A program made the translations under genes and the position numbers. The notes beneath the pieces were generated by a model that did no database searches, had not been told where the DNA came from, and worked only from the letters and a program-made list of their open reading frames with translations. Positions 530 to 10,761 of a stretch of 64,000 nucleotides of DNA are shown here, piece by piece. The DNA lies in NCBI RefSeq assembly GCF_023347235.1, contig NZ_CP094467.1, forward strand, positions 2,666,001-2,730,000, written 5' to 3'. This DNA is from Faecalibacterium sp. I4-1-79 (GTDB lineage: Bacteria > Bacillota > Clostridia > Oscillospirales > Ruminococcaceae). Positions within the stretch are counted from its first letter, which is position 1; every line of letters begins with the position of its first letter.

Positions 530-802
530 TCATTCTCCGCAGACGGTGTCACCGTTCTGCACTTCCTTGATACCAGCCTGTAAAGCGGTATGGAGCTGTT
601 CATCCGTCATGGTGTCTGCATTCAGCGCAGTCGGGGCTTTCGGCAAGGACAGTGGAAACGGAATGCCGCCCGTCAGCGTAATCTGACGCAGGTACATATC
701 AATGGCGGTCGCCATTGGAATGCCGAGCTGCTTCAGCACATCCTCGGCTTGCTGTTTGACGATAGGACTGACCCGGACATTCAGCATTTGTGTTTTTTCC
801 AT
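530..802 (-). CDS. RelB/DinJ-family antitoxin, no toxin beside it
   Basis: The 90-residue product MEKTQMLNVRVSPIVKQQAE... has the ribbon-helix-helix N-terminus typical of DinJ/RelB antitoxins (NVRVSPIVKQQAEDVLKQLG, then MATAIDMYLRQI). It ends in an acidic tail (about residues 60-90) of the kind that wraps a RelE/YafQ toxin. The ATG at 800-802 is chosen because GAGGTG lies 6 bases upstream; the GTG three codons earlier overlaps that site. No RelE/YafQ-like gene is visible on either side. The next gene downstream is a serine recombinase, so this protein may act mainly as a repressor of the recombinase operon (inference). A palindrome upstream supports DNA binding. Confidence 0.85.
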   Translation of the reverse strand: MEKTQMLNVRVSPIVKQQAEDVLKQLGIPMATAIDMYLRQITLTGGIPFPLSLPKAPTALNADTMTDEQLHTALQAGIKEVQNGDTVCGE

Positions 803-821
803 GGGTATCACCTCACGATTA

Positions 822-957: not shown

Positions 958-1245
958 TCAGAACGAGGGAATACAGTTTTGCAAGATCCCTGCCATCTGG
1001 CATTTAGGGAGAACCAGTTTTTCCCACAGAGGCTTGAATATTTTCTGAACCGGCAGCATATTCCGGTTTGCAAGAGCTATCCGATAAAAGTATCTGTGCT
1101 CTTTGCTATAGCTCAGATAAGGCATCAACATCGATTCACCTTGATGTTCTCGCTCAGAGGGCCATTCTTCGGTAATGCGGAGCAGTTCGCCGTTCAGATA
1201 ATCTTCTGCGTCCTGTAACATTGCATGAATGTCTGTATCCATCAC
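958..1245 (-). pseudogene. Probable TetR-type regulator remnant (C-terminal part only)
   Basis: The 95-residue frame contains YLSYSKEHRYFYRIAL...LPVQKIFKPLWEKL. This resembles the ligand-binding C-terminal domain of TetR/AcrR regulators, where a short helix with a '(Y/F)xxxxxxxYRxxL' pattern is common. The N-terminal helix-turn-helix is missing. The sequence upstream on this strand is occupied by the promoter and leader of the 1399 gene. The frame also lacks a convincing ribosome site. It is best read as decayed passenger DNA of the mobile region. The family call is tentative. Confidence 0.35.
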
Positions 1246-1303
1246 CGACTTGACGGCATTGGTTTGAGTGGCCGACCCAGATATCTTAAATTATCTCTCT
1301 ATG

Positions 1304-1331
1304 TTTACAAAACATCTGTGATTCTCTCTTT
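1304..1331 (+). promoter_or_regulatory. TTTACA-N16-CTCTTT promoter for the peptidase gene
   Basis: TTTACA at 1304-1309 and CTCTTT at 1326-1331 are separated by exactly 16 bases, about 70 bases before the start at 1399. The CTCTTT box is unlike a sigma-A -10 element. The same two boxes with the same spacing lie before the sigma gene at 3373. TTTACA-type -35 boxes are, as I recall, characteristic of promoters read by TcdR/BotR/UviA sigma factors. Confidence 0.6.
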
Positions 1332-1398
1332 CTATTACGTAAGGACGCAAATGAGGGGCCCCATAAACGTCCTACTAAAAAAAAAGGAGATTATTACT

Positions 1399-2304
1399 AT
1401 GTTACTCAAAAATGGAAGTACCGGAAACTATGTTATGTACCTGCAGTATGGACTGCATATCATGTGCTGCCCTCCGGGTAGTTTTGACAGCAAATTTGGC
1501 TCTGGTACTGAAAATGCTGTTAAGAAGTATCAGGGCAAAAAAGGTCTTACCCAAGATGGCATTATTGGCGATGGTACATGGAATGCACTGGTAAGCGACA
1601 TTAAAACTATCCAGCAGCTCCTGAAGAACAAAGGTTATTACGCCAGTACGGTGGATGGCCTTGCAGGTTCAGGCACTTATAACGCTGTTATCAGTTTTCA
1701 GAAAGCATCCGGCTTGACTGCCGATGGTATGGTCGGCAGTGCCACCCTGAACGCATTGAACGCTTCTTCGGGCGGTACAAGTGGTCAATCTCATTCAATC
1801 ACTCTGCCTACTGATAGAAACTATCTTTGGGCACAGAAGAATTCGGAGATTGTTAAGCTTGTTGGAAATAGCGGTTGCTCGCTTGTTGCTGTGTTGAATA
1901 CCGCTAATATCTATGGTCCTCGTGAATTCACCCCTAACGAAGTCCTGACTGCCTGTGGAAATTGGGGTGCAAACGGTCTGAATACTTGGGCTCTTCCCAG
2001 CGAGTGCAATGGTAAAATCGACACGAGCAAATACACTCATGGCGGTAAGGTGCAGGCGACTGTATTCAGTGCAGTCAAAGCAAGTATTGACAATAACCCT
2101 CCCATCATTATTCGACTCAACAGTAGCAATGGCAAAAAGACGCATTTTGTCACAGCGATTGCTTATACTGGCGATTGCTCCTCTGCAAGTAGCATTTCCG
2201 TCATTGATCCTGCTGGTGGTGTCATTCGAACTCTTGAGGAAGCGGGAACTGCACGCAATGAAACCGTATACGGCGATTATATCGCAACCGCTCGTCGCTC
2301 CTAA
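1399..2304 (+). CDS. Peptidoglycan-binding protein with C39/papain-like peptidase domain
   Basis: The 301-residue protein has two PG_binding_1-type repeats (about 1-63 and 66-120; motifs LKNGSTGNYV, TENAVKKYQ..GLTQDGIIG and TYNAVISFQKASGLTADGMVG). A Gly/Ser linker follows, then a cysteine peptidase-like domain (about 136-301). The likely catalytic residues are Cys160 in NSGCSLVA, His249 in THFVTAIAY and Asp270 in VIDPAGG. The ATG at 1399 is chosen for AAGGAG 8 bases upstream. No signal peptide or membrane helix is visible, so export would need lysis, a holin or a non-classical route. The domain mix suits a cell-wall lytic enzyme or bacteriocin-like toxin acting on peptidoglycan stem peptides (inference). 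The gene is AT-rich compared with the flanking genes. A special promoter precedes it and a strong terminator follows. Confidence 0.85.
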   Translation: MLLKNGSTGNYVMYLQYGLHIMCCPPGSFDSKFGSGTENAVKKYQGKKGLTQDGIIGDGTWNALVSDIKTIQQLLKNKGYYASTVDGLAGSGTYNAVISFQKASGLTADGMVGSATLNALNASSGGTSGQSHSITLPTDRNYLWAQKNSEIVKLVGNSGCSLVAVLNTANIYGPREFTPNEVLTACGNWGANGLNTWALPSECNGKIDTSKYTHGGKVQATVFSAVKASIDNNPPIIIRLNSSNGKKTHFVTAIAYTGDCSSASSISVIDPAGGVIRTLEEAGTARNETVYGDYIATARRS

Positions 2305-2359
2305 ATATCTCTACTCTCTTCATCAACAATAAGTTGTAAAGCATCATTTTTTAGCATAT

Positions 2360-2413
2360 ATCCCCCCCAAAGTCTTTTCTCAACTCTCGAAAAGGCTTCG
2401 GGGGGGATTTTTC
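2360..2413. terminator. Terminator after the peptidase gene, likely bidirectional
   Basis: A run of seven C residues at 2362-2368 pairs with seven G residues at about 2400-2406. AAGTCTTTT/GAAAAGGCTT extends the stem, and a T run follows. It sits between the convergent 1399 gene and the 2449 lipoprotein gene. Confidence 0.85.
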
Positions 2414-2448
2414 AATGCCTATTATATGCAACACTTTTCACTATCTGC

Positions 2449-3225
2449 TTATCCAAGCTCAGGCGAGTGATATTTATTTACTCTCCACACATACCCAACT
2501 TTTACCAACTGCATTTCATATTCGACTTTATTCATGTCATCATATGAATACTCATCATGTACCTCATACGTTTCATTGGGATTATAGTATGCAATCATTA
2601 CAAAATTCACTTGTGCTTCCGTTTTATTTTTCAAATAGTATCGCACTGAGCAGAAATCATCCGGATAATATTCTCCCACATATCCCGTAAAATATGGAAT
2701 TTGTGCCAAATCATAGTCATCACAAACGGCGAGTTTTCCATTATAATTCGCAAACTTTTTCTCAATTGAATCTTGTGACAAGAAATCATTTGTAAAAATA
2801 GATTTCATATATTCTTCAAACTCTTTATAAGAATTTTGATAGACCTCATAATCATGTCCGTTCAGTTTTACATATGTCGGCGCATTTTGCGTCATAGGCA
2901 CAAAAGTCGGAGCATCTTCAATTTTAAAATTCAGTCCTTTTAAGTTACTTGATTGTCCCCAAAGTGCATAGTCCATTTTCTGCGCTTTTTCAAAAACAGT
3001 ATATTGATCTTGATCTAAAAATACCGAGGTCGAATCAACTAACGTCTGGGAAAAATCTTGCAAATCATTTTTTTCTTCAGAATTGCATGAACTTGACGAT
3101 GTATCCTGTGACGAAACTGCTGTGGACATTGATGATGCTGTTGTATCATTCATTCCACATCCCACCAAATTCACCACAATACAACCCAGAATCACTATCA
3201 TTTTTACACTTTTTGCACAATTCAT
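2449..3225 (-). CDS. Unrecognised lipoprotein
   Basis: The 258-residue protein begins MNCAKSVKMIVILGCIVVN and has a clear lipobox, LVGC, so Cys23 would be lipidated and the mature protein anchored outside the membrane. A Ser/Thr-rich linker (about 27-50) precedes a soluble domain rich in Tyr and acidic residues. I do not recognise that domain. A GGAGAA ribosome site precedes the ATG at 3225. It is divergent from the TcdR-like sigma gene and convergent with the peptidase gene. That position would suit an immunity or self-protection lipoprotein, but this is inference. Its upstream region holds a GTTTACAA box on the minus strand but no matching CTCTTT box. Confidence 0.8.
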   Translation of the reverse strand: MNCAKSVKMIVILGCIVVNLVGCGMNDTTASSMSTAVSSQDTSSSSCNSEEKNDLQDFSQTLVDSTSVFLDQDQYTVFEKAQKMDYALWGQSSNLKGLNFKIEDAPTFVPMTQNAPTYVKLNGHDYEVYQNSYKEFEEYMKSIFTNDFLSQDSIEKKFANYNGKLAVCDDYDLAQIPYFTGYVGEYYPDDFCSVRYYLKNKTEAQVNFVMIAYYNPNETYEVHDEYSYDDMNKVEYEMQLVKVGYVWRVNKYHSPELG

Positions 3226-3321
3226 ATGTTCTCCTTTTTTACAAGTTTATCAACATATTGTTTAGTTTCTATTGCTTTCTTGTAAACTTTTTATATTAGC
3301 TCACAAAAATCTATTTTTTCG

Positions 3322-3349
3322 TTTACAAATCTTAACATTTTTTCTCTTT
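3322..3349 (+). promoter_or_regulatory. TTTACA-N16-CTCTTT promoter for the TcdR-like sigma gene
   Basis: TTTACA at 3322-3327 and CTCTTT at 3344-3349 have a 16-base spacer, identical in boxes and spacing to the 1304-1331 promoter. It lies 24 bases before the sigma gene start, which would make the sigma factor self-activating, as reported for TcdR. Confidence 0.6.
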
Positions 3350-3372
3350 CCTCTTAAAAGGAGGAAAGAAAA

Positions 3373-3921
3373 TTGAATTATACGCTTTTTGACCTTTTTC
3401 TAAATGCATATAACGGCAACTCCTTTGCACAGCTACAAATCGTCCAACGTTTTCAGCCATTACTGAAAAAATATGCAGCTCTTCTTAAGTATGAGGATGC
3501 CTATTCAGATTTACAATTATATCTTCTCGAATTACTGCATTCCGGAAAATTGACCAAACTTCAAAGAAAAGATGACGGCACATTAGTGAAATATATTGAA
3601 TCCTCTATCCGGCATCAATACATTTCGCTTAACAGCCGAAAAAACGCCGTAGATAACTCTGTCATCGCAAGCGTTGATGAAATTGATTTCGATCAGATGT
3701 CTTTGTCCTCAAACGATGAATATCCTGAACTATTGATTTCCGATTTACATTCTGTTCTTCAACCTTCTGAACTGACCTTATTATCTCAATTTGTTTTTAA
3801 AGGAATGAGCATCGCAGATATAGCAGAAAAATCTGGTGTCAGTAGACAAGCTATCAACCGTAAAAAGCTTTCTATATTAAAAAAATTAGAATGTGCATTC
3901 TTCCCTAAAACTTCCAAATAA
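3373..3921 (+). CDS. TcdR/UviA-like (group V) RNA polymerase sigma factor
   Basis: The 182-residue protein starts at TTG 3373 after AAAGGAGGAAAG. The N-terminal half (FDLFLNAYNGN.., IVQRFQPLLKKYAALLKYEDAYSDLQLYLLELL, LVKYIESSIRHQYI) matches the layout of sigma region 2 in the toxin and bacteriocin sigma factors TcdR, BotR, TetR and UviA. The C-terminal half has a region 4 helix-turn-helix (MSIADIAEKSGVSRQAINRKKLSILKKLE, about 145-173). The length is also typical of that group. In clostridia these factors switch on toxin or bacteriocin genes. Here the same promoter pair lies before this gene and the peptidase gene 2 kb upstream. Generic conjugative-element sigma-like proteins are the main alternative. 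Low GC suggests horizontal origin. Confidence 0.75.
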   Translation: MNYTLFDLFLNAYNGNSFAQLQIVQRFQPLLKKYAALLKYEDAYSDLQLYLLELLHSGKLTKLQRKDDGTLVKYIESSIRHQYISLNSRKNAVDNSVIASVDEIDFDQMSLSSNDEYPELLISDLHSVLQPSELTLLSQFVFKGMSIADIAEKSGVSRQAINRKKLSILKKLECAFFPKTSK

Positions 3922-3979
3922 ATTCTCATTCATTTTGATTTCATTCTTTAGTGTATAAAAGCTATTTTCTTCGCTTCCT

Positions 3980-4645
3980 TTAATCGAACCACCACGGCAG
4001 TTCCAACCACAAATTATCCATGGCCTGTTCCTCGGTCTTTTTAGCACGGCTCTTTGTCAGGTGGAAGTATATCGCTGTACCGATCAGGGGATGCTCCTCA
4101 CCGTCTGTGAACCCATAGCGGTACAGCAGATAGGTCTGCTCCCGGTCGGTCAGGCGTTGCAGACCGTTGTACAGCTCCCGGCGCGATTCCTGCTCCTCCA
4201 TAATATTCTGCGGCTGCATGGCGTAAGGGTCGGCTATAGCTTCGATGCGCCGCAGTTGTTCCTCTCCCGGCAGAACATCGTCCAGCGAAACGCGCTGGTA
4301 GTAGACGCCGTCCTTGTCCTCCGTTACCATCCGCTGCTCAAAAGCGGCAAAGGCATCCCGTACCATGTCCATCATGGCGTTGCGGATGGCAGGAGCCGCA
4401 TAGGTCAGGAACTTCATGCCGCGCGCTGCATCGAACTTCGGCACAGCTTTCCATAAGCCCAGATTGCCCGCCTGTTTCAAATCGTCCGTGTCAAGGTTCA
4501 GGCCAGCCTGTGCCAAATTCATGCTGCGAAAAAGGTCATTCGCCACCTTGCCAATAAAGGACTTGTTGTTGTCGATCAGGCTGTCCAGCGCGGCAGCATC
4601 GCCTTTCTGTGCCAGCGCACAAAGCCGTTCATTCGTCTGCTTCAT
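3980..4645 (-). CDS. Sigma-70-family protein of a mobile element
   Basis: The 221-residue protein begins MKQTNERLCALAQKGDAAAL. It contains sigma region 2 (IGKVANDLFRSM...DLKQAGNLGLWKAVPKFDAARGMKFLTYAAPAIRNAMMD, about 28-90), including the conserved 'DLxQxGxxGLxxA' and 'FxTYA' blocks. Region 4 is weak (LTDREQTYLLYRYGF, about 165-180). The ATG at 4643-4645 is chosen because the longer frame reads back into the upstream gene; it overlaps that gene by 17 bases, indicating translational coupling. The XRE regulator partner precedes it. It probably directs transcription of element genes or acts as a regulator; the target is unknown. Confidence 0.8.
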   Translation of the reverse strand: MKQTNERLCALAQKGDAAALDSLIDNNKSFIGKVANDLFRSMNLAQAGLNLDTDDLKQAGNLGLWKAVPKFDAARGMKFLTYAAPAIRNAMMDMVRDAFAAFEQRMVTEDKDGVYYQRVSLDDVLPGEEQLRRIEAIADPYAMQPQNIMEEQESRRELYNGLQRLTDREQTYLLYRYGFTDGEEHPLIGTAIYFHLTKSRAKKTEEQAMDNLWLELPWWFD

Positions 4646-5492
4646 GGGCGTTTTCCTGCTCTGCGGCAGACTGCAAGATTCCCAGCAGACCGTTCCGCAG
4701 ATGTTCCAGTGCTTCCGGCGTGGCTCCTTCCATGCCCGAAACACTGTCCAACATTGCATCTGTCAACTGCTCTGCCGTAATCGTTGGGTGCTGCACATCC
4801 TGCCCTTTGGTCAATTCAGTGAACATCTTCTCTGCCACTTTCTTGCTCATGGCTTCCTGTTCGGCGTAATGGCTCCCGATCCCCTTTTTGATTTCCTTGA
4901 CCGCCGCCATGAAGTACATTTCAATGTCATCAAGATCGCCTTGATACACCGGCTTTCTCCGAAGGCTGATGTCCTTTGCGGCTTTGGCTGCTTCCGGGGT
5001 CTTGACCTTTGTGCGCAGCAGGGTGCTCAATGTCGTGAGCATGGCGTTCTGTGCTGCGATGCCGGAAGCAAAGGTATCATCAAAATACTGCGATATGCGG
5101 TAAGTAAGCTCTGCGAAGCGAGCGTTTTCCAGCAGCAGGTTGACCACCTCTGTATTGACACGTCCTGTGTAGAGGTTCTTTGCAGCTTCTACGGACAAGC
5201 CTAACTCGGCAATGTCGTAGTTCTTGCGGTCGGGAATGTTGGTTTCTCCCAGCAGAAAATCCGTGGACACGTTGAACAGCCTTGCAATTTTCAGCACCTG
5301 CTCATGGGTCAGGGTTCCCTTTGCACCGCTGATAAAGCGGCTGATGGTGCTCTTGGAGCAGCCGATTTCCTTGGCAAGCTCCGGTTGGCTTATGTTGTGC
5401 TCTTTCATCAAGTCCGCAAGACGGACGTTGGATGGTGCGGGCAGATATTCCTGTGCCACGTGGTCGGCCCTCCTTTTGGCGTTTTTTCTCAT
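4629..5492 (-). CDS. XRE-family DNA-binding regulator
   Basis: The 287-residue protein begins MRKNAKRRADHVAQEY. An HTH_3 domain at about 20-75 reads LADLMKEHNISQPELAKEIGCSKSTISRF and ends with a typical NVSTDFLLG. The rest is alpha-helical and unrecognised (about 80-287). The start at 5490-5492 is uncertain, because no Shine-Dalgarno site precedes it and a TATTATAAT box directly abuts the ATG. Leaderless translation, or the upstream TTG at 5552, are alternatives. It overlaps the sigma-like gene by 17 bases and transcribes away from the relaxase gene, so it may control transfer functions of the element. Confidence 0.8.
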   Translation of the reverse strand: MRKNAKRRADHVAQEYLPAPSNVRLADLMKEHNISQPELAKEIGCSKSTISRFISGAKGTLTHEQVLKIARLFNVSTDFLLGETNIPDRKNYDIAELGLSVEAAKNLYTGRVNTEVVNLLLENARFAELTYRISQYFDDTFASGIAAQNAMLTTLSTLLRTKVKTPEAAKAAKDISLRRKPVYQGDLDDIEMYFMAAVKEIKKGIGSHYAEQEAMSKKVAEKMFTELTKGQDVQHPTITAEQLTDAMLDSVSGMEGATPEALEHLRNGLLGILQSAAEQENAHEADE

Positions 5493-5769
5493 TATAATAC
5501 GCTTTGCCGTTTTGTTCAATATACGGTTTCCTCTCTGCCCTTGCTGTTGCAACTCTGCAACCAGTAAGGGCTTTTTTCTTTTTCCGTTGCAGTTCTGCCG
5601 CTTTTGCGCCTTTCCTGCAAAATTTTCCGTATATTCAGGCAGGAAGCAAAAAACACCAGAGTTCCCACTTTGGGGTCTCTGGTGCAGTACATAATATCGC
5701 TTTGCCCGGTGGCCGCAGGGTGCGGGGCTTTGTGGGCATCGAACCGCTTGTCCACCCCTGTCCGTAAAA

Positions 5770-6062
5770 AGTGCATTTTTTCACGGAAGAAGTTCGTACA
5801 ACCTGTACGGTCTGTACTTGTACGCACCCGTACGGCAAGCAGAAGCAAATTAAAACGTGTTATCGTTTGTATTTTGGATTTCTGTACGTCGTACGAACCG
5901 TACAGGTTATTTGAAGTCCGTACGCAATTTTTTCAGATGCGTACGGAGCAATCAAGTTCGCATTGTGCGAACTTGATTGTAATTCTCCCGCAGGAGACGT
6001 TCCCCCTCGGAGAGTCCTCGAAGAGCCCACTACACTTTGCAGCCCATAGGGATGAAAGTGTC
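5770..6062. other. Iteron-like GTACG-rich, oriT-like region before the relaxase gene
   Basis: This gene-free stretch holds many copies of CGTACG/GTACGG/CTGTAC between 5785 and 5945. A perfect palindrome follows at 5949-5979 (14-bp arms CAATCAAGTTCGCA / TGCGAACTTGATTG, 3-base loop). Short inverted repeats continue to about 6060. MobV relaxase genes commonly lie next to their transfer origin, so an oriT and regulator-binding site are likely. A related GTACG-rich stretch with an AAGTTCGC/GCGAACTT palindrome occurs at 57386-57600. Confidence 0.5.
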
Positions 6063-6142
6063 ATAGTGTGTTATTACACTTCCGGGGAAGTGCATTTCCG
6101 TCCCCGTCACCTTCCTCTGAACCCCGAAAGGAGGGATGCCCT

Positions 6143-7408
6143 TTGGCAAGAAACGATGGCGTTGACCGCACCAGTGTCCGAAATCTCGCCGTTTCGGACA
6201 AGGCCGTTGGCAACACCCAGCAGCACAATGAGCGTGAAAAGGACAGCTATCGAAACCCCGACATTATCCCCCAGCGCACCTCATGGAACGTCCACTTCAA
6301 AAAGCCAACCGCCAGCTACACCGACCTATTCGCCCAACTGGAAGCCGCCGAAACCATCTCCACGCGCGGCTTGAAGCCGGATGCTACCCACTACTGTGAA
6401 CTTGTCTTTGATGTCAACTCGGCCTATTTTGACAATCACGGTGGCTACGAGTTCGCCAAGCAGTTCTATGAGGATGCCTACAAAGCCGCCGTACAAATCG
6501 TAGGCAGTGAGCAATATATCCTCTCGGCAGTCATGCACGCAGATGAGATCAACCGTGCCATGACCGAAGCACTGGGCCGGGAGGTCTACCACTACCATCT
6601 CCACGTGGTCTATGTGCCTGTGGTGGAAAAGCAGATCCTCTGGTCGAAACGCTGCAAGGACAAGGCACTGGTCGGCACCGTCAAGGAGACCGTCATGCAG
6701 GTCAGCCGAAGCAAGAAGTGGGCTTCCAAGCCCCTGCTGGACGATGCTGGAAAGCCTGTCCTGCAAAAGAGCGGCAAGCCAGTCCTGAAGAAGTCGTACA
6801 GTGTCCTGCAAGACGATTTCTTCAACTATATGCGCAATGCCGGGTACACGGATGTAGAGCGCGGTGAGCGTGGCAGCACTGAAGAACACCTGACCGTCAC
6901 CCAATTCAAAGTCCAGCGGGAGCAGGAGCGTCTGGACAGCCTGACTTCTCAAATCGACCAGAAAGAACAGTCGCTTGCCCGAACCAGCACCGCTCTCTCC
7001 AAAAAGGAGAAGGAACTTGCCGCTGTGCAGAAAAAGGCCACGCTCACGAAAGAAGCCCTCATTCATGCGCACGATCTTGATTATATCGGCAAGCGCACCT
7101 TCCTCGGCAACTATTCACTGACCGAAGAAGAATTCTCCAAGCTGAAAAAACAGGCCGACCACGGCTATATGATGGATGTAGAGAACCGCCACTTGAAAGA
7201 AGAACTTTCCACCGCCAAGAAGGAAGCTGCTCATTGGGGTCAAAAGTATCATGAGCTCTGGTATGAAGTGAAGCCCTATCTGGACGCGCTCCACCGTGCG
7301 CCTGAACTGGTGCGCAGCTTTCTGGAAAAGATTCTCGCCCTCAAGCAGGAGCGCACCATGAATGTGCCGCAGAAAAACCGCAAGCGTGGGCAGGATATGG
7401 AACTTTGA
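6143..7408 (+). CDS. MobV-type relaxase (Pre/Mob plasmid recombination enzyme)
   Basis: The 421-residue protein starts at TTG 6143, seven bases after GGAGGG. The N-terminal half is the Pre/Mob relaxase fold: SWNVHFKKP, HYCELVFDVNSAYF and, most diagnostic, VMHADEINRAMTEALGR..YHYHLHVVYVPVV, whose histidines would bind metal. Such enzymes nick oriT and stay covalently attached to the transferred strand during mobilisation. The C-terminal part (about 250-400) is a long coiled coil (SLTSQIDQKEQSLARTSTALSKKEKEL and onward). The probable oriT lies directly upstream. No conjugation (type IV secretion) genes are in view, so this is a mobilisable element rather than a self-transmissible one. Confidence 0.9.
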   Translation: MARNDGVDRTSVRNLAVSDKAVGNTQQHNEREKDSYRNPDIIPQRTSWNVHFKKPTASYTDLFAQLEAAETISTRGLKPDATHYCELVFDVNSAYFDNHGGYEFAKQFYEDAYKAAVQIVGSEQYILSAVMHADEINRAMTEALGREVYHYHLHVVYVPVVEKQILWSKRCKDKALVGTVKETVMQVSRSKKWASKPLLDDAGKPVLQKSGKPVLKKSYSVLQDDFFNYMRNAGYTDVERGERGSTEEHLTVTQFKVQREQERLDSLTSQIDQKEQSLARTSTALSKKEKELAAVQKKATLTKEALIHAHDLDYIGKRTFLGNYSLTEEEFSKLKKQADHGYMMDVENRHLKEELSTAKKEAAHWGQKYHELWYEVKPYLDALHRAPELVRSFLEKILALKQERTMNVPQKNRKRGQDMEL

Positions 7409-7425
7409 GTTTCGGAGGATACCAT

Positions 7426-7700: not shown

Positions 7701-7952
7701 TTAATCTTCTAACCTATGGCTCCCGGCCACATTCTTCAAATATTCCTCCGGGTCACCGTTCAGAATCAAATCTGCATAGCCCAGCGGATCATTGTAGATG
7801 AGGTAGTCCAGTTCCGTCTGCTGTGCCATAGTCACATTCAGTGCATCCTCGACCCCGGTACAGTCAATGGAGATTTTTCTCCCGTCCCGGAGCAGCAGCT
7901 CCACGCAGCCAGTGTCTATATTAAACTTGCAGGCTCTTTCATCGTACTTCAT
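7701..7952 (-). CDS. Conserved small protein, possibly DUF6061-like
   Basis: The 83-residue product begins MKYDERACKFNIDTGCVELLLRDGRKISIDC. It ends with ELDYLIYNDPLGYADLILNGDPEEYLKNV, a pattern I associate with small clostridial proteins annotated as DUF6061; the family name is from memory. The second of two nearby ATGs (7952) is chosen because GGAGG then sits 8 bases upstream. The function is unknown. It lies between the relaxase operon and tRNA-Tyr and may mark the edge of the mobile element. Confidence 0.65.
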   Translation of the reverse strand: MKYDERACKFNIDTGCVELLLRDGRKISIDCTGVEDALNVTMAQQTELDYLIYNDPLGYADLILNGDPEEYLKNVAGSHRLED

Positions 7953-8055
7953 AATCATACCCTCCAAATCTTGTTATTGGCTTACGGTTTATGACAAGGT
8001 ATCGGGGTTTTGCGCCGTCCACGGGAGCCTTCGTTGTTGTACCCGAAGAAAACGA

Positions 8056-8102
8056 AAAATCCGAACCCTTCTCCAATCGGAAATAGGTTCGGATTTTTCT
8101 TG
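8056..8102 (-). terminator. Terminator of tRNA-Tyr
   Basis: AAAAATCCGAACC and GGTTCGGATTTTT form a 13-bp hairpin immediately downstream of the tRNA on the minus strand, with a T-rich end. Confidence 0.8.
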
Positions 8103-8104
8103 TT

Positions 8105-8189
8105 TGGTGGGCGCGGGTGGATTCGAACCACCGAAGCTGAAAGCAGCAGATTTACAGTCTGTCCCCATTGGCCACTCGGGAACACGCCC
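8105..8189 (-). tRNA. tRNA-Tyr (GTA)
   Basis: The minus strand folds as a class II tRNA with a long variable arm: acceptor GGGCGTG/CGCGCCC, anticodon loop ACTGTAAAT giving GTA, T-arm GGTTCGAATCC. The 3' CCA is encoded (TGG at 8105-8107 on the plus strand). It borders the mobile region, but no obvious duplicated tRNA end was found. Confidence 0.95.
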
Positions 8190-8384
8190 ATATTCTTTTG
8201 TTGTGCATCCGTTCGCCGGACGACTTGTTTATTTTAGCATGAGAAAGGGGTTTTGTCAACTACCTTTTTTACTTTTTTTCAGCAGGCTTACAGTCCCCTG
8301 CCCGCCGCGCTCTATCCGGTTGAATTGCGTCCTGTTTTATGTTAAAATAATGTAAAGATTTTACAGGCAGGAGTGGGTCATCGC

Positions 8385-9056
8385 ATGGAGTCAACAATCA
8401 ACGATGCACCGCAAATTTCTATCGACCGGGAAAAGACGCTGCGCGGCCACCGGCGTTACTGGGTGCTGCGGCGTGCACAGGACATCGTATTCTCCCTGCT
8501 GGCGCTGATCTTGCTTGCGCCGCTGGCACTGCTGATCAGCCTTGCCATCGTGCTGGACAGCCCCGGAGACGGAGTTATTTTCCGGCAGCGGCGGGTAGGA
8601 CGGGACGGCAAGCTGTTCTGGCTGTATAAGTTTCGCACCATGTGCCCGGACGCCGAGGAGCAGCTGAATGAGCTGCTGAGCCAGAACCAGATGGATGGCC
8701 CGGTGTTCAAGATCAAGGGGGATCCCCGTATTACCCGGGTGGGACGTTTTCTGCGCAAGACCAGTCTGGACGAGCTACCCCAGCTGCTCAACGTGCTGCG
8801 GGGCGATATGAGCATCGTGGGACCGCGCCCCGCACTACCCCGGGAGGTAGAGCTGTACAGCGACTACCAGCGCCAGCGGCTGTACGTCACCCCCGGGCTG
8901 AGCTGCTACTGGCAGATCGCACCCCACCGTAACGAGATGAGCTTTGACGAGTGGGTGGCGCTGGATCTGAAATACATCCAAGAGCGCAGCTTCTGGGTGG
9001 ACTGGAAGATCATCATCCTCACCGTCCGCGCCATGCTCATGAAATACGGAGAGTGA
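8385..9056 (+). CDS. Bacterial sugar transferase (polyprenyl-phosphate glycosyl-1-phosphate transferase)
   Basis: The 223-residue protein moves a sugar-1-phosphate from a nucleotide sugar to undecaprenyl phosphate, the first step of exopolysaccharide or capsule repeat synthesis at the inner membrane face. One hydrophobic re-entrant helix (about 33-57, IVFSLLALILLAPLALLISLA) anchors it. The family motifs KFRTM, TSLDELPQLLNVLRGDMSIVG and GPRPALP follow. The ATG at 8385 is chosen over the GTG at 8373, because that GTG overlaps the CAGGAG ribosome site. It stands alone, without glycosyltransferase neighbours, and is followed by a bidirectional terminator. Confidence 0.92.
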   Translation: MESTINDAPQISIDREKTLRGHRRYWVLRRAQDIVFSLLALILLAPLALLISLAIVLDSPGDGVIFRQRRVGRDGKLFWLYKFRTMCPDAEEQLNELLSQNQMDGPVFKIKGDPRITRVGRFLRKTSLDELPQLLNVLRGDMSIVGPRPALPREVELYSDYQRQRLYVTPGLSCYWQIAPHRNEMSFDEWVALDLKYIQERSFWVDWKIIILTVRAMLMKYGE

Positions 9057-9057
9057 C

Positions 9058-9098
9058 AAAAGCGCCTGTTGTGCATTCGCACAACAGGCGCTTTCGTT
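9058..9098. terminator. Bidirectional terminator between the sugar transferase gene and ilvD
   Basis: AAAGCGCCTGTTGTGC and GCACAACAGGCGCTTT make a near-perfect 16-bp hairpin between two convergent genes. Confidence 0.9.
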
Positions 9099-9102
9099 AC
9101 GT

Positions 9103-10761
9103 TTATTTCAGCACCGCACCCAGATTTGCACTGGTGACCATGCGGGCGTAGCGGCTCAGCCAGCCGGTCTTGATGTTGGGCTCCGGCGCAACGTACTTTG
9201 CCTTGCGCTCGGCCAGCACTGCATCGCTGACCTCCAGCGTGATGGAGGCGTTGGGGATGTCGATGGTGATGGTATCCCCTTCCTCGATCAGGCCGATGGG
9301 GCCGCCGGAGGCCGCCTCCGGGCTGACGTGGCCGATGGCGGCACCACGGGATGCGCCGGAGAAGCGGCCGTCGGTGATGAGCGCTACCGTCTTATCCAGC
9401 TTCATGCCTGCCAGCGCAGAGGTGGGGTTGAGCATCTCCCGCATGCCCGGGCCGCCCTTGGGGCCTTCGTAGCGGATGACCACCACATCGCCCGGGACGA
9501 TCTTGCCCGCGTAGATAGCGGCAATGGCCTCTTCCTCGCTGTTGAACACCCGCGCCGGGCCGGAATGCTGCTGCATCTCCGGGGCGACAGCGCTGCGCTT
9601 GACAACGCAGCCGTCCGGGGCAATGTTGCCCCACAGGATCTGCAGACCGCCGGTCTCAGAGTAGGGGTTCTCGATGGGACGAATGGCCTTTTCGTTCAGG
9701 ATATGGGCACCCTTGATGTTCTCGCCAAGGGTCTTGCCGGTGACGGTGGGCACATCCAGATCCAGCAGGCCCTTCTTTGCCAGCTCTGCCTGTACTGCCG
9801 GGATACCGCCCGCCGCGTACAGATCCGGCATGTGGGTGGGGCCTGCCGGTGCCAGATGGCACAGGTTGGGGGTCTTGGCGCTGATCTCATTGAACAGCTT
9901 CAGGTCGATGGGCACACCGGCCTCGTAGGCGATAGCCAGCAGGTGCAGCACCGTGTTGGTGGAGCAGCCCAGCGCCATATCGCAGGTCAGCGCGTTGCGG
10001 ATGGAGCGCTCGTTGATGATCTGGCGCGCGGTGATGCCCTTGCGCACCATCTCCATCACGGCCATACCGGCGTGCTTTGCCAGCTGCAGGCGCTTGGAGT
10101 ACACAGCCGGGATGGTGCCGTTGCCGGGCAGGGCAATGCCGATGGCCTCGCACAGGCAGTTCATGCTGTTGGCGGTGTACATACCGGAGCAGCTGCCGCA
10201 GCTGGGGCAGCAGTTGCAGGTGCAGTCCTCCAGCTGCTCGTCGGTGATCATTCCGGCCTTATAGGCACCCACGGCCTCGAACATCTTGGAAAGGCTCACT
10301 TCCTCGCCGCCGTAAGTACCGGCCAGCATGGGACCGCCGGAGCAGACCACAGCGGGCACATCCATGCGCACCGCTGCCATCACCATGCCGGGCACGATCT
10401 TATCGCAGTTGGGCACCAGCACAAGGCCGTCCAGCTGGTGTGCCATCAGCATGGTCTCCACGCTGTCGCAGATCAGCTCACGAGAGGCCAGAGAGTACTT
10501 CATGCCCACATGACCCATGGCGATGCCATCGCATACACCGATGGCGGGGATCAGGATGGGGGTACCACCGGCCATCTGCACACCGGCCTTGACAGCCTCG
10601 GCGATCTTATCCAGATTCATGTGGCCGGGCACGATCTCGCTGTGGGCGCTCACCACGCCGATGAGGGGGCGCTCCAGCTCCTCCGGGGTGTAGCCCAGCG
10701 CATAAAACAGGCTGCGGTTGGGCGCGCGCTCCGAGCCCTTCGTCACGTTGTCACTTCTCAT
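9103..10761 (-). CDS. ilvD: Dihydroxy-acid dehydratase
   Basis: The 552-residue iron-sulfur enzyme dehydrates 2,3-dihydroxy-isovalerate and 2,3-dihydroxy-3-methylvalerate to the keto acids of valine and isoleucine. Conserved blocks are [29 protein letters not shown] and [20 protein letters not shown] (cluster cysteines). Near the C-terminus are [11 protein letters not shown] and [16 protein letters not shown]. The length is normal for the family. It is the last gene of the ilvBNCD run, separated from ilvC by about 200 bases of palindromic repeats, so it may have partly independent expression or RNA processing. Confidence 0.97.

Follow-up and report, generated by a model that had tools for sequence, protein, structure and literature searches.

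The 64-kb stretch of DNA analysed here (the window) belongs to the 3.23-Mb genome (G000) of a Faecalibacterium-like gut bacterium and carries a module of three genes (Table 1). These encode, in this order, a peptidase (P0003), a lipoprotein (P0002) on the opposite strand and a sigma factor. An earlier note on this DNA had placed the promoter-like motif TTTACA-N16-CTCTTT before both the peptidase gene and the sigma gene, and both boxes were recovered as exact matches with a spacing of 16 bases. The picture of the module given there had to be corrected in one respect: the lipoprotein gene lies tail-to-tail with the peptidase gene and head-to-head with the sigma gene, and it does not stand behind the motif, as no TTTACA-N16-CTCTTT box precedes it. 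A second copy of the module is present in the same genome (copy 2, G000:C1:3146189-3148723), with a peptidase 97% and a sigma factor 100% identical to those of the window. In a search of 31 genomes of the genus, the peptidase was detected in four (G000, G005, G006 and G012), which together contain five copies.

Table 1. Features of the module and of its carrier element, with positions in the window.
Feature	Position	Strand	Remarks
Peptidase promoter, TTTACA-N16-CTCTTT	1304..1331	+	-10 end 67 nt upstream of start codon; identical in copy 2, G005, G006 and G012
Peptidase ORF, 301 aa, good Shine-Dalgarno sequence upstream	1399..2304	+	Two PG_binding_1 domains, then C39-like cysteine peptidase
Likely terminator, C-run/G-run hairpin followed by T-run, between the convergent genes	2362..2412	.	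Found by eye
Lipoprotein ORF, 258 aa, proposed peptidase inhibitor/immunity protein	2449..3225	-	Lipobox LVGC; weak IseA (PF16800) match
Sigma promoter (putative autoregulation), TTTACA-N16-CTCTTT	3322..3349	+	-10 end 23 nt upstream of TTG start; deleted in copy 2
Sigma factor ORF, 182 aa, TcdR/BotR/UviA (group V) type	3373..3921	+	SRQ in region 4.2
Stretch common to copy 2 (93-98% DNA identity), carrier mobilizable element	1236..7409	.	Module, XRE regulator, second sigma-70 gene and Mob_Pre relaxase
Mob_Pre relaxase of the carrier element	6068..7408	+	PF01076, E 3.9e-30

No exact match of the motif occurred in 200 first-order Markov simulations of 64 kb. With up to two mismatches, the window showed eight matches in comparison to a mean of 2.99 in shuffled sequences, and eight were attained in 2 of 100 shuffles. 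In the whole genome the exact motif was found three times (reversed control: 0), namely at both boxes of the window and at the peptidase promoter of copy 2. The frequent occurrence at random positions, which the earlier note had named as an argument against a regulon, was thus not observed. When one mismatch was allowed, 14 matches (the three exact ones included) were obtained in comparison to 17 for the reversed control, and the additional matches therefore represent background. A fourth match in the genome (G000:C1:1247214) possesses a spacing of 14 and was treated as a chance occurrence. A bare match of the motif means little, because at least one exact match was present in 177 of 396 genomes of the family and six, on different contigs, occurred in genome G307, which has no match to the sigma factor. 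In genomes with close relatives of the sigma factor (G000, G012, G340, G421 and G452), two to four matches were located either at the sigma locus itself or elsewhere on the same contig. It is this clustering at sigma loci, rather than the bare occurrence, that sets the motif apart. Very probably, the two genes of the window form a regulon with two promoters.

The sigma protein, with sigma regions 2 and 4, has a size and layout that fit the approximately 180 aa of group V sigma factors. The earlier note had assigned it to the TcdR/BotR/UviA kind, and this assignment held: among 18,950 NCBIfam models, BotR was the best specific model (TIGR03209, 34.8 bits, E 1.4e-8, residues 23-161; next specific model 5e-5), and the general sigma-70 model TIGR02937 ranked above it (36.6 bits with a cut-off of 42.9, residues 22-173). 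A best alignment to plain regulators of conjugative elements, the other outcome considered in that note, was not obtained. Group V sigma factors have been described from toxin- and bacteriocin-producing clostridia (excerpts of PMC4031146, PMC10467148, PMC4885068, PMC4597214 and PMC9527704), and an SRQ motif in region 4.2 is proposed in part of PMC4031146 as a mark of the TcdR-related members which read TTTACA. Region 4.2 of the window sigma factor reads VSRQAIN and thus contains this motif, and a TTTACA -35 box is found before its own gene as well as before a target gene, as in group V.

Relatives of the sigma factor with approximately 28-37% identity were detected on a 28-kb plasmid (CP026603, L045) of Clostridiaceae bacterium 14S0207 and on three faecal scaffolds labelled as phage. 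Furthermore, a search of 396 genomes of the family (E 1e-3) revealed relatives in 22, and a profile search of 394 genomes of the order (E 1e-12) revealed them in 15; close relatives were not found in the genome-contig and viral-contig collections. At 60% identity these proteins form 20 clusters including the window, and the flanks were inspected for the stronger relatives. Nine genomes with weaker matches from the family search (G034, G050, G112, G147, G224, G225, G263, G306 and G455) and seven from the order search (G147, G291, G590, G642, G675, G734 and G756) were left out of the tally, and G344 (L084) and G452 (L085, truncated sigma gene), whose flanks were retrieved as well, do not enter the cluster count. 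Region 4.2 contains SRQ in 12 clusters, TRQ in two, TKQ in two and other residues in four. The BotR model was the top model for L072, one of four relatives scanned.

The spacing of the boxes recurs in these relatives. When exact TTTACA-Nk-CTCTTT pairs with k from 8 to 25 were counted in 24 loci, 21 of 27 had k=16 (18 from Gemmiger-type loci, two from the window and one from the plasmid), compared to six for the remaining spacings combined. In 12 of the 20 clusters the sigma gene is preceded by a pair with a score of 10 of 12 or more, and in nine of them the -10 end is located 20-31 nt upstream of the start codon; in the comparison set, which includes likely targets, 28 of 179 other ORFs possessed such a pair. 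When any sixth base of the -35 box was allowed, all 16 boxes from six clusters whose region 4.2 contains SRQ or TRQ read TTTACA, and all four boxes from two TKQ clusters read TTTACT. Locus L117, whose sigma gene is not on the piece, stands outside this count and shows five further TTTACA boxes. Such a covariation is what a direct reading of the box by these sigma factors would predict, and two TKQ clusters are few. Palindromes (GAACGTTC or GAGCGGCCGCTC) follow directly after the -10 box at many promoters of L048, L072, L073 and L117. A role of RNA structure in the 5' untranslated region was dropped, as three stretches after the -10 box gave folding z values from -0.6 to -1.8 in comparison to shuffles; since this folding is unexceptional, the palindromes may be operators.

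The peptidase combines modules binding peptidoglycan (PG) with a C39-like domain, as the earlier note had read from the sequence. Its C39 domain is 37% identical (3e-26) to a protein of locus L138 (297-830) that passes PF13529, and the proposed triad of C160, H249 and D270 is invariant over five sequences of relatives. The window protein itself is below the cut-off of PF13529 (Peptidase_C39_2; 18.8 of 24 bits), and its relative L138:297-830 reached 31.4 bits and L078:7681-8106 reached 35.0 bits. The L138 gene lies behind TTTACT-N16-TTCTTT at a locus with sigma factor, holin and lysozyme. BLASTP gave no significant match between the C39 domain of the window and the C39-like protein of L048, which has no Pfam peptidase match; the two are related here because of links via L138 and L076 and the common triad. 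No signal peptide was detected by eye in the peptidase, and a search of the viral contig collection with the peptidase domain yielded nothing. The assignment as a peptidase is highly probable.

The same boxes that precede the sigma genes also precede holin, amidase, M23, C39-like and PG-binding genes, at loci where the sigma factor is approximately 30-37% identical; the cell-wall hydrolases encoded there are signal-less. A wall-type enzyme or a wall- or lectin-binding protein was found within about 6 kb in 15 of the 20 clusters. The classes comprise C39, amidase_2, M23, CHAP, Phage_lysozyme2 and Rv2525c-like glycoside hydrolase, many of them with ricin-lectin, PG_binding or CW_7 modules. C39, lectin and PG-binding proteins were tallied by class and not by activity, and the tallies of hydrolases, lipoproteins and tail-to-tail pairs were made by eye from ORF tables and a lipobox pattern, partly checked with Pfam. 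L079, with a C39 protein, is included among the 15; L074 has a lectin only, and the protein beside the lipoprotein in L045 consists of PG_binding modules and a hydrophobic end and has no enzyme domain. A lipoprotein gene is located nearby in 12 clusters (two lipoprotein-like genes near the L141 sigma gene, one of them ApbE, were excluded). A hydrolase or wall-binding gene lies tail-to-tail with a lipoprotein gene in 10 of the 20, the window and L117 included, and the plasmid and L078 repeat the window's order of wall protein, opposing lipoprotein and sigma factor.

Holins occur near the sigma gene in 10 of the 20 clusters in all. Those of family PF05105 were found at most 14 kb from the sigma gene in 7 of 16 genomes outside the window's genus, where about 0.2 would be expected from rounded genome sizes. 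Of 20 genomes or records, only three possessed a PF10960 (UviB/BhlA) holin, which in every case shares its contig or plasmid with the sigma gene: in G385 and G102 it follows this gene directly, an arrangement also seen in uviAB, and on plasmid CP026603 the distance is about 3 kb. The holin of the similar faecal locus L048 passes both PF05105 and TIGR01593, 'toxin secretion/phage lysis holin'. A search of 257 Gb of genomes detected the divergent pattern AAAGAG-N16-TGTAAA-N0-30-TTTACA-N16-CTCTTT (24 fixed bases) at four loci, all of them in three strains of Gemmiger formicilis, ATCC 27749 among them; the viral contig collection gave no match. In each case the pattern is flanked by a holin gene on one side and a ricin-lectin amidase gene on the other, the amidase frame being short in two of the four (258 versus 329 aa).

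The earlier note had proposed the lipoprotein as the immunity protein. This proposal is backed to some extent by sibling loci in which lipoproteins similar to IseA and LprI are encoded next to C39 and lysozyme genes. P0002 matches IseA (PF16800) weakly and below the cut-off (E 1.4e-4, residues 115-167, 22.3 of 29.9 bits), and has no sequence match in the PDB. An IseA scan of 20 whole genomes or records (E 0.05) yielded 11 places, of which seven, in three clusters, lie at the modules described here. At L076, an IseA-like lipoprotein (nearly the whole model matched, 23 bits, below the cut-off) is encoded tail-to-tail with a C39-like enzyme that is related to that of the window (3e-7). At L047, the lipoprotein adjoining a Phage_lysozyme2 protein is just over the cut-off of LprI, a lysozyme inhibitor (22.6 of 22 bits). 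In three clusters (window, L076 and L047), the nearest family of the lipoprotein is consequently an inhibitor suited to the neighbouring enzyme. L073 represents a third IseA-like case without a nameable partner enzyme, and its lipoprotein showed a weak BLASTP match to P0002 (0.001). It is rather likely that the lipoprotein acts as an inhibitor. The partner enzyme of IseA is of the NlpC/P60 type. P0002 resembles this inhibitor of DL-endopeptidases (part of PMC13204101) in the weak PF16800 match and in the proposed extracellular inhibition of a wall peptidase, but it is a lipoprotein below the family cut-off and is paired with a C39-like enzyme.

Some sibling loci showed further features. In L142 and L143 (G567:C22 and G569:C118), the sigma relatives lie behind TTTACA-N16-CTTTCT and beside phage tail-like genes, one of which is Phage_tail_3 by Pfam (L143:6556-6972); perhaps this is a tailocin or prophage late-gene switch of the same sigma family. 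On plasmid CP026603, a TTTACA-N16-ATCTTT box precedes a 419-aa gene without assigned function (L045, 14668-15996). The sigma relative of L141 is followed by an M23 peptidase with CW_7 wall-binding repeats (7764-9204). In L137 (4338-8627), a pair of sigma factor and holin is encoded downstream of a murG-like glycosyltransferase gene (Glyco_transf_28), and the other genes of this neighbourhood look by eye like genes of cell-wall synthesis.

Class III bacteriocins with immunity genes, for example lysostaphin, pair a wall hydrolase with a protection gene, as is proposed for the window, but bacteriocins of the lysostaphin type are Sec-secreted and their immunity genes change the wall target. Like the UviA/UviB/Bcn5 loci of Clostridium perfringens and C. 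algidicarnis (excerpts of PMC9527704), the loci described here group a small sigma factor, a holin and an amidase with a signal-less wall-active protein, and TTTACA is the -35 box of this sigma group (part of PMC4031146). In contrast to Bcn5, the effector of the window consists of PG_binding and C39 peptidase domains and showed no match to the M14/SH3b domains given for Bcn5 in part of PMC9527704; a convergent lipoprotein is present, and no holin of the two families searched was detected in the genome. With the PaLoc of Clostridioides difficile (TcdR/TcdE; excerpts of PMC4597214, PMC4885068 and PMC10467148), the module shares a putatively autoregulated group V sigma factor, the TTTACA box and a signal-less product. 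According to excerpts of PMC4597214, a holin was present in every toxigenic PaLoc sequenced to its date, and in one PaLoc form an amidase endolysin lies beside it; seven sibling clusters likewise possess a holin of family PF05105, of which one was scanned with NCBIfam and passes TIGR01593. Unlike the PaLoc, the module contains wall hydrolases and lipoproteins instead of a glucosylating toxin, and no TcdE-type holin occurs in the window's genome. Protein size, SRQ in region 4.2, the TTTACA box and a variable -10 box are shared with the BotR/UviA-like regulators of botulinum clusters (part of PMC4031146), from which the window differs in a sigma factor below the BotR cut-off and in the lack of a toxin gene in the module. 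An account of such loci in commensals was not found among the matches listed in searches of the open-access PMC literature, subscription journals being mostly outside this scope. In terms of sequence, the loci combine known types of sigma factor, promoter and holin with wall hydrolases and opposing lipoproteins in place of a toxin or Bcn5.

The module is likely a minimal member of a family of UviA/TcdR-type regulons in commensals; its effector would be the peptidase, and the lipoprotein would be a constitutively made inhibitor. The sequences support the regulon with two promoters, the type of sigma factor, the class of enzyme and the recurrence of sigma factor, hydrolase, lipoprotein and often holin; promoter recognition, release of the peptidase, killing and inhibition we infer. 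In this view, a mobilizable element would carry a minimal lysin cassette that is switched by a sigma factor. This sigma factor, of the group V type and encoded by the element itself, would enable core polymerase to read TTTACA-N16-CTCTTT, and transcription of the sigma gene from its own promoter would provide a positive feedback, with the peptidase gene being transcribed as well. The peptidase would bind peptidoglycan via its two N-terminal modules and cut it via the Cys-His-Asp domain. Since it has no export signal, release by a holin or by lysis would be required. The lipoprotein, encoded on the other strand without a sigma promoter, would inhibit the enzyme in carriers at the outside of the membrane. 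The net effect could be antagonism of cells without the element or a controlled lysis, with a slight preference for antagonism over self-lysis.

Several observations weigh against this interpretation. The sigma factor misses the curated BotR cut-off widely (34.8 versus 138.35 bits) and is therefore not a BotR equivalog, even if BotR is its best specific model; among the relatives, this model scored weakly for L048 and L074 and ranked low for L045. In eight of the 20 clusters, no box upstream of the sigma gene reached a score of 10 of 12, and the stricter rule applied in the covariation count left 11 of 19 clusters without a box, several SRQ ones included. A wall-type gene was not found nearby in five of 20 clusters, namely L137 (holin only), L140, L144 (broken sigma gene), L142 and L143. 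Neither PF05105 nor PF10960 holins were detected in the window's genome, nor in the other three genomes of the genus with the peptidase (G005, G006 and G012). With regard to the inhibitor, the PF16800 scores at all seven module places are below the curated cut-off, five of these seven are copies of the window lipoprotein, and the sole place over the cut-off (G385:C30) lies away from the module. P0002 and the IseA-like lipoprotein of L076 showed no BLASTP match, the AlphaFold model of P0002 has a pLDDT of 30, and most sibling lipoproteins scanned gave no inhibitor match (nothing useful, DUF6070 or WG repeats). Finally, promoter use, release, killing and inhibition are all deduced from sequence.

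The best of the alternatives, although rather unlikely, is a domesticated lysis cassette, in which the sigma factor would trigger self-lysis by holin and endolysins and thereby release DNA of the element or other cargo; the lipoproteins would only delay or limit self-damage, and other bacteria would not be the target. The occurrence of a holin with an amidase, lysozyme or CHAP protein in one locus, partly under one promoter type, resembles a phage lysis module. The amidase endolysin beside the holin in one PaLoc form (PMC4597214, as excerpted above) points in the same direction, as do the two sigma relatives adjoining phage tail genes. On the other hand, the loci encode several hydrolases of different kinds, many of which bring a lectin- or PG-binding module of their own and face a convergent lipoprotein gene; this suits sets of effector and immunity proteins better than a single endolysin, and the version in the window has no holin of the two families searched.

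The natural variants bear on a second alternative, a decayed remnant with real promoters that no longer works in this genome and is passively carried. The regulon had been called self-contained in the earlier note, which is true for the window and G006, where the sigma gene and its promoter are intact, but fails for three of the five copies as single units: the sigma gene is deleted in G005, stopped by a TAG in G012 and promoterless in copy 2, which lacks about 80 bases including the sigma promoter. These losses, which also count against the regulon as effector and inhibitor, and the missing holins would suit a remnant. A remnant is quite improbable: none of the five copies has lost the peptidase, its promoter or the lipoprotein, the two copies of this genome encode the same sigma protein, and the window and G006 retain three intact genes with two intact promoters. 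The variant copies fit silenced copies that keep immunity, and they fit plain decay too. Copy 2 (L005 10122-16204, corresponding to window 1236-7409) can be regarded as a natural promoter deletion, whose peptidase would need the sigma factor of the first copy.

The carrier element also encodes a second sigma-70-like protein (3980-4759, minus strand; region 2 match, E 2.9e-13) and an XRE regulator (4629-5552), and copy 2 of the shared stretch is accompanied by an integrase. A 27-bp sequence at the left end of this stretch (window 1247-1273) recurs inverted at the right end of copy 2 (L005 16347-16373) and is possibly an end of the element. About 250 bases downstream match a Faecalibacterium phage (87%), in agreement with Faecalibacterium as host. 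The plasmid collection contained nothing close to the module DNA (1236-4000). A gene for a RelB-type antitoxin is located at 530-811 (minus strand). In Gemmiger ATCC 27749 (L117, 4158-7987), the cassette lies beside a gene for a TraG-type ATPase and a large M23 gene, and may sit in a conjugative element. That the peptidase opens the wall as an accessory of conjugation to aid transfer of the mobilizable element is very improbable: this transfer-gene setting and the association with the Mob_Pre relaxase and, in copy 2, the integrase would agree with it, but no signal peptide is seen in the peptidase, the motif is absent from the large M23 genes (L117 and L072) that would suit conjugation, and the plasmid relative is typed as non-mobilizable.

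If the reading as a regulon of effector and inhibitor is extended to the siblings, a widespread and undescribed family of sigma-switched lysin/inhibitor islands in commensal Oscillospirales is conceivable, though this is more doubtful than the reading of the window itself and is put forward tentatively. In such an island, a group V sigma factor would activate its own gene together with an exchangeable assortment of wall hydrolases and, in many cases, a holin of the TcdE or UviB type. Opposite each hydrolase, a convergent gene would constitutively provide a lipoprotein that inhibits enzymes of that class. From this architecture without toxins, the toxin and bacteriocin loci of pathogenic clostridia would have branched off. 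The pairs of hydrolase and lipoprotein are ready candidates for enzyme/inhibitor assays. Now that relatives of like composition but without toxins are available for comparison, the origin of the core of sigma factor, holin and endolysin in the C. difficile toxin locus becomes testable. In Gemmiger and in the Faecalibacterium-like host, the same types of switch, promoter and holin are tied to wall hydrolases and inhibitor-like lipoproteins, which points to a way for gut commensals to compete or to lyse in a controlled manner that has so far gone unstudied.

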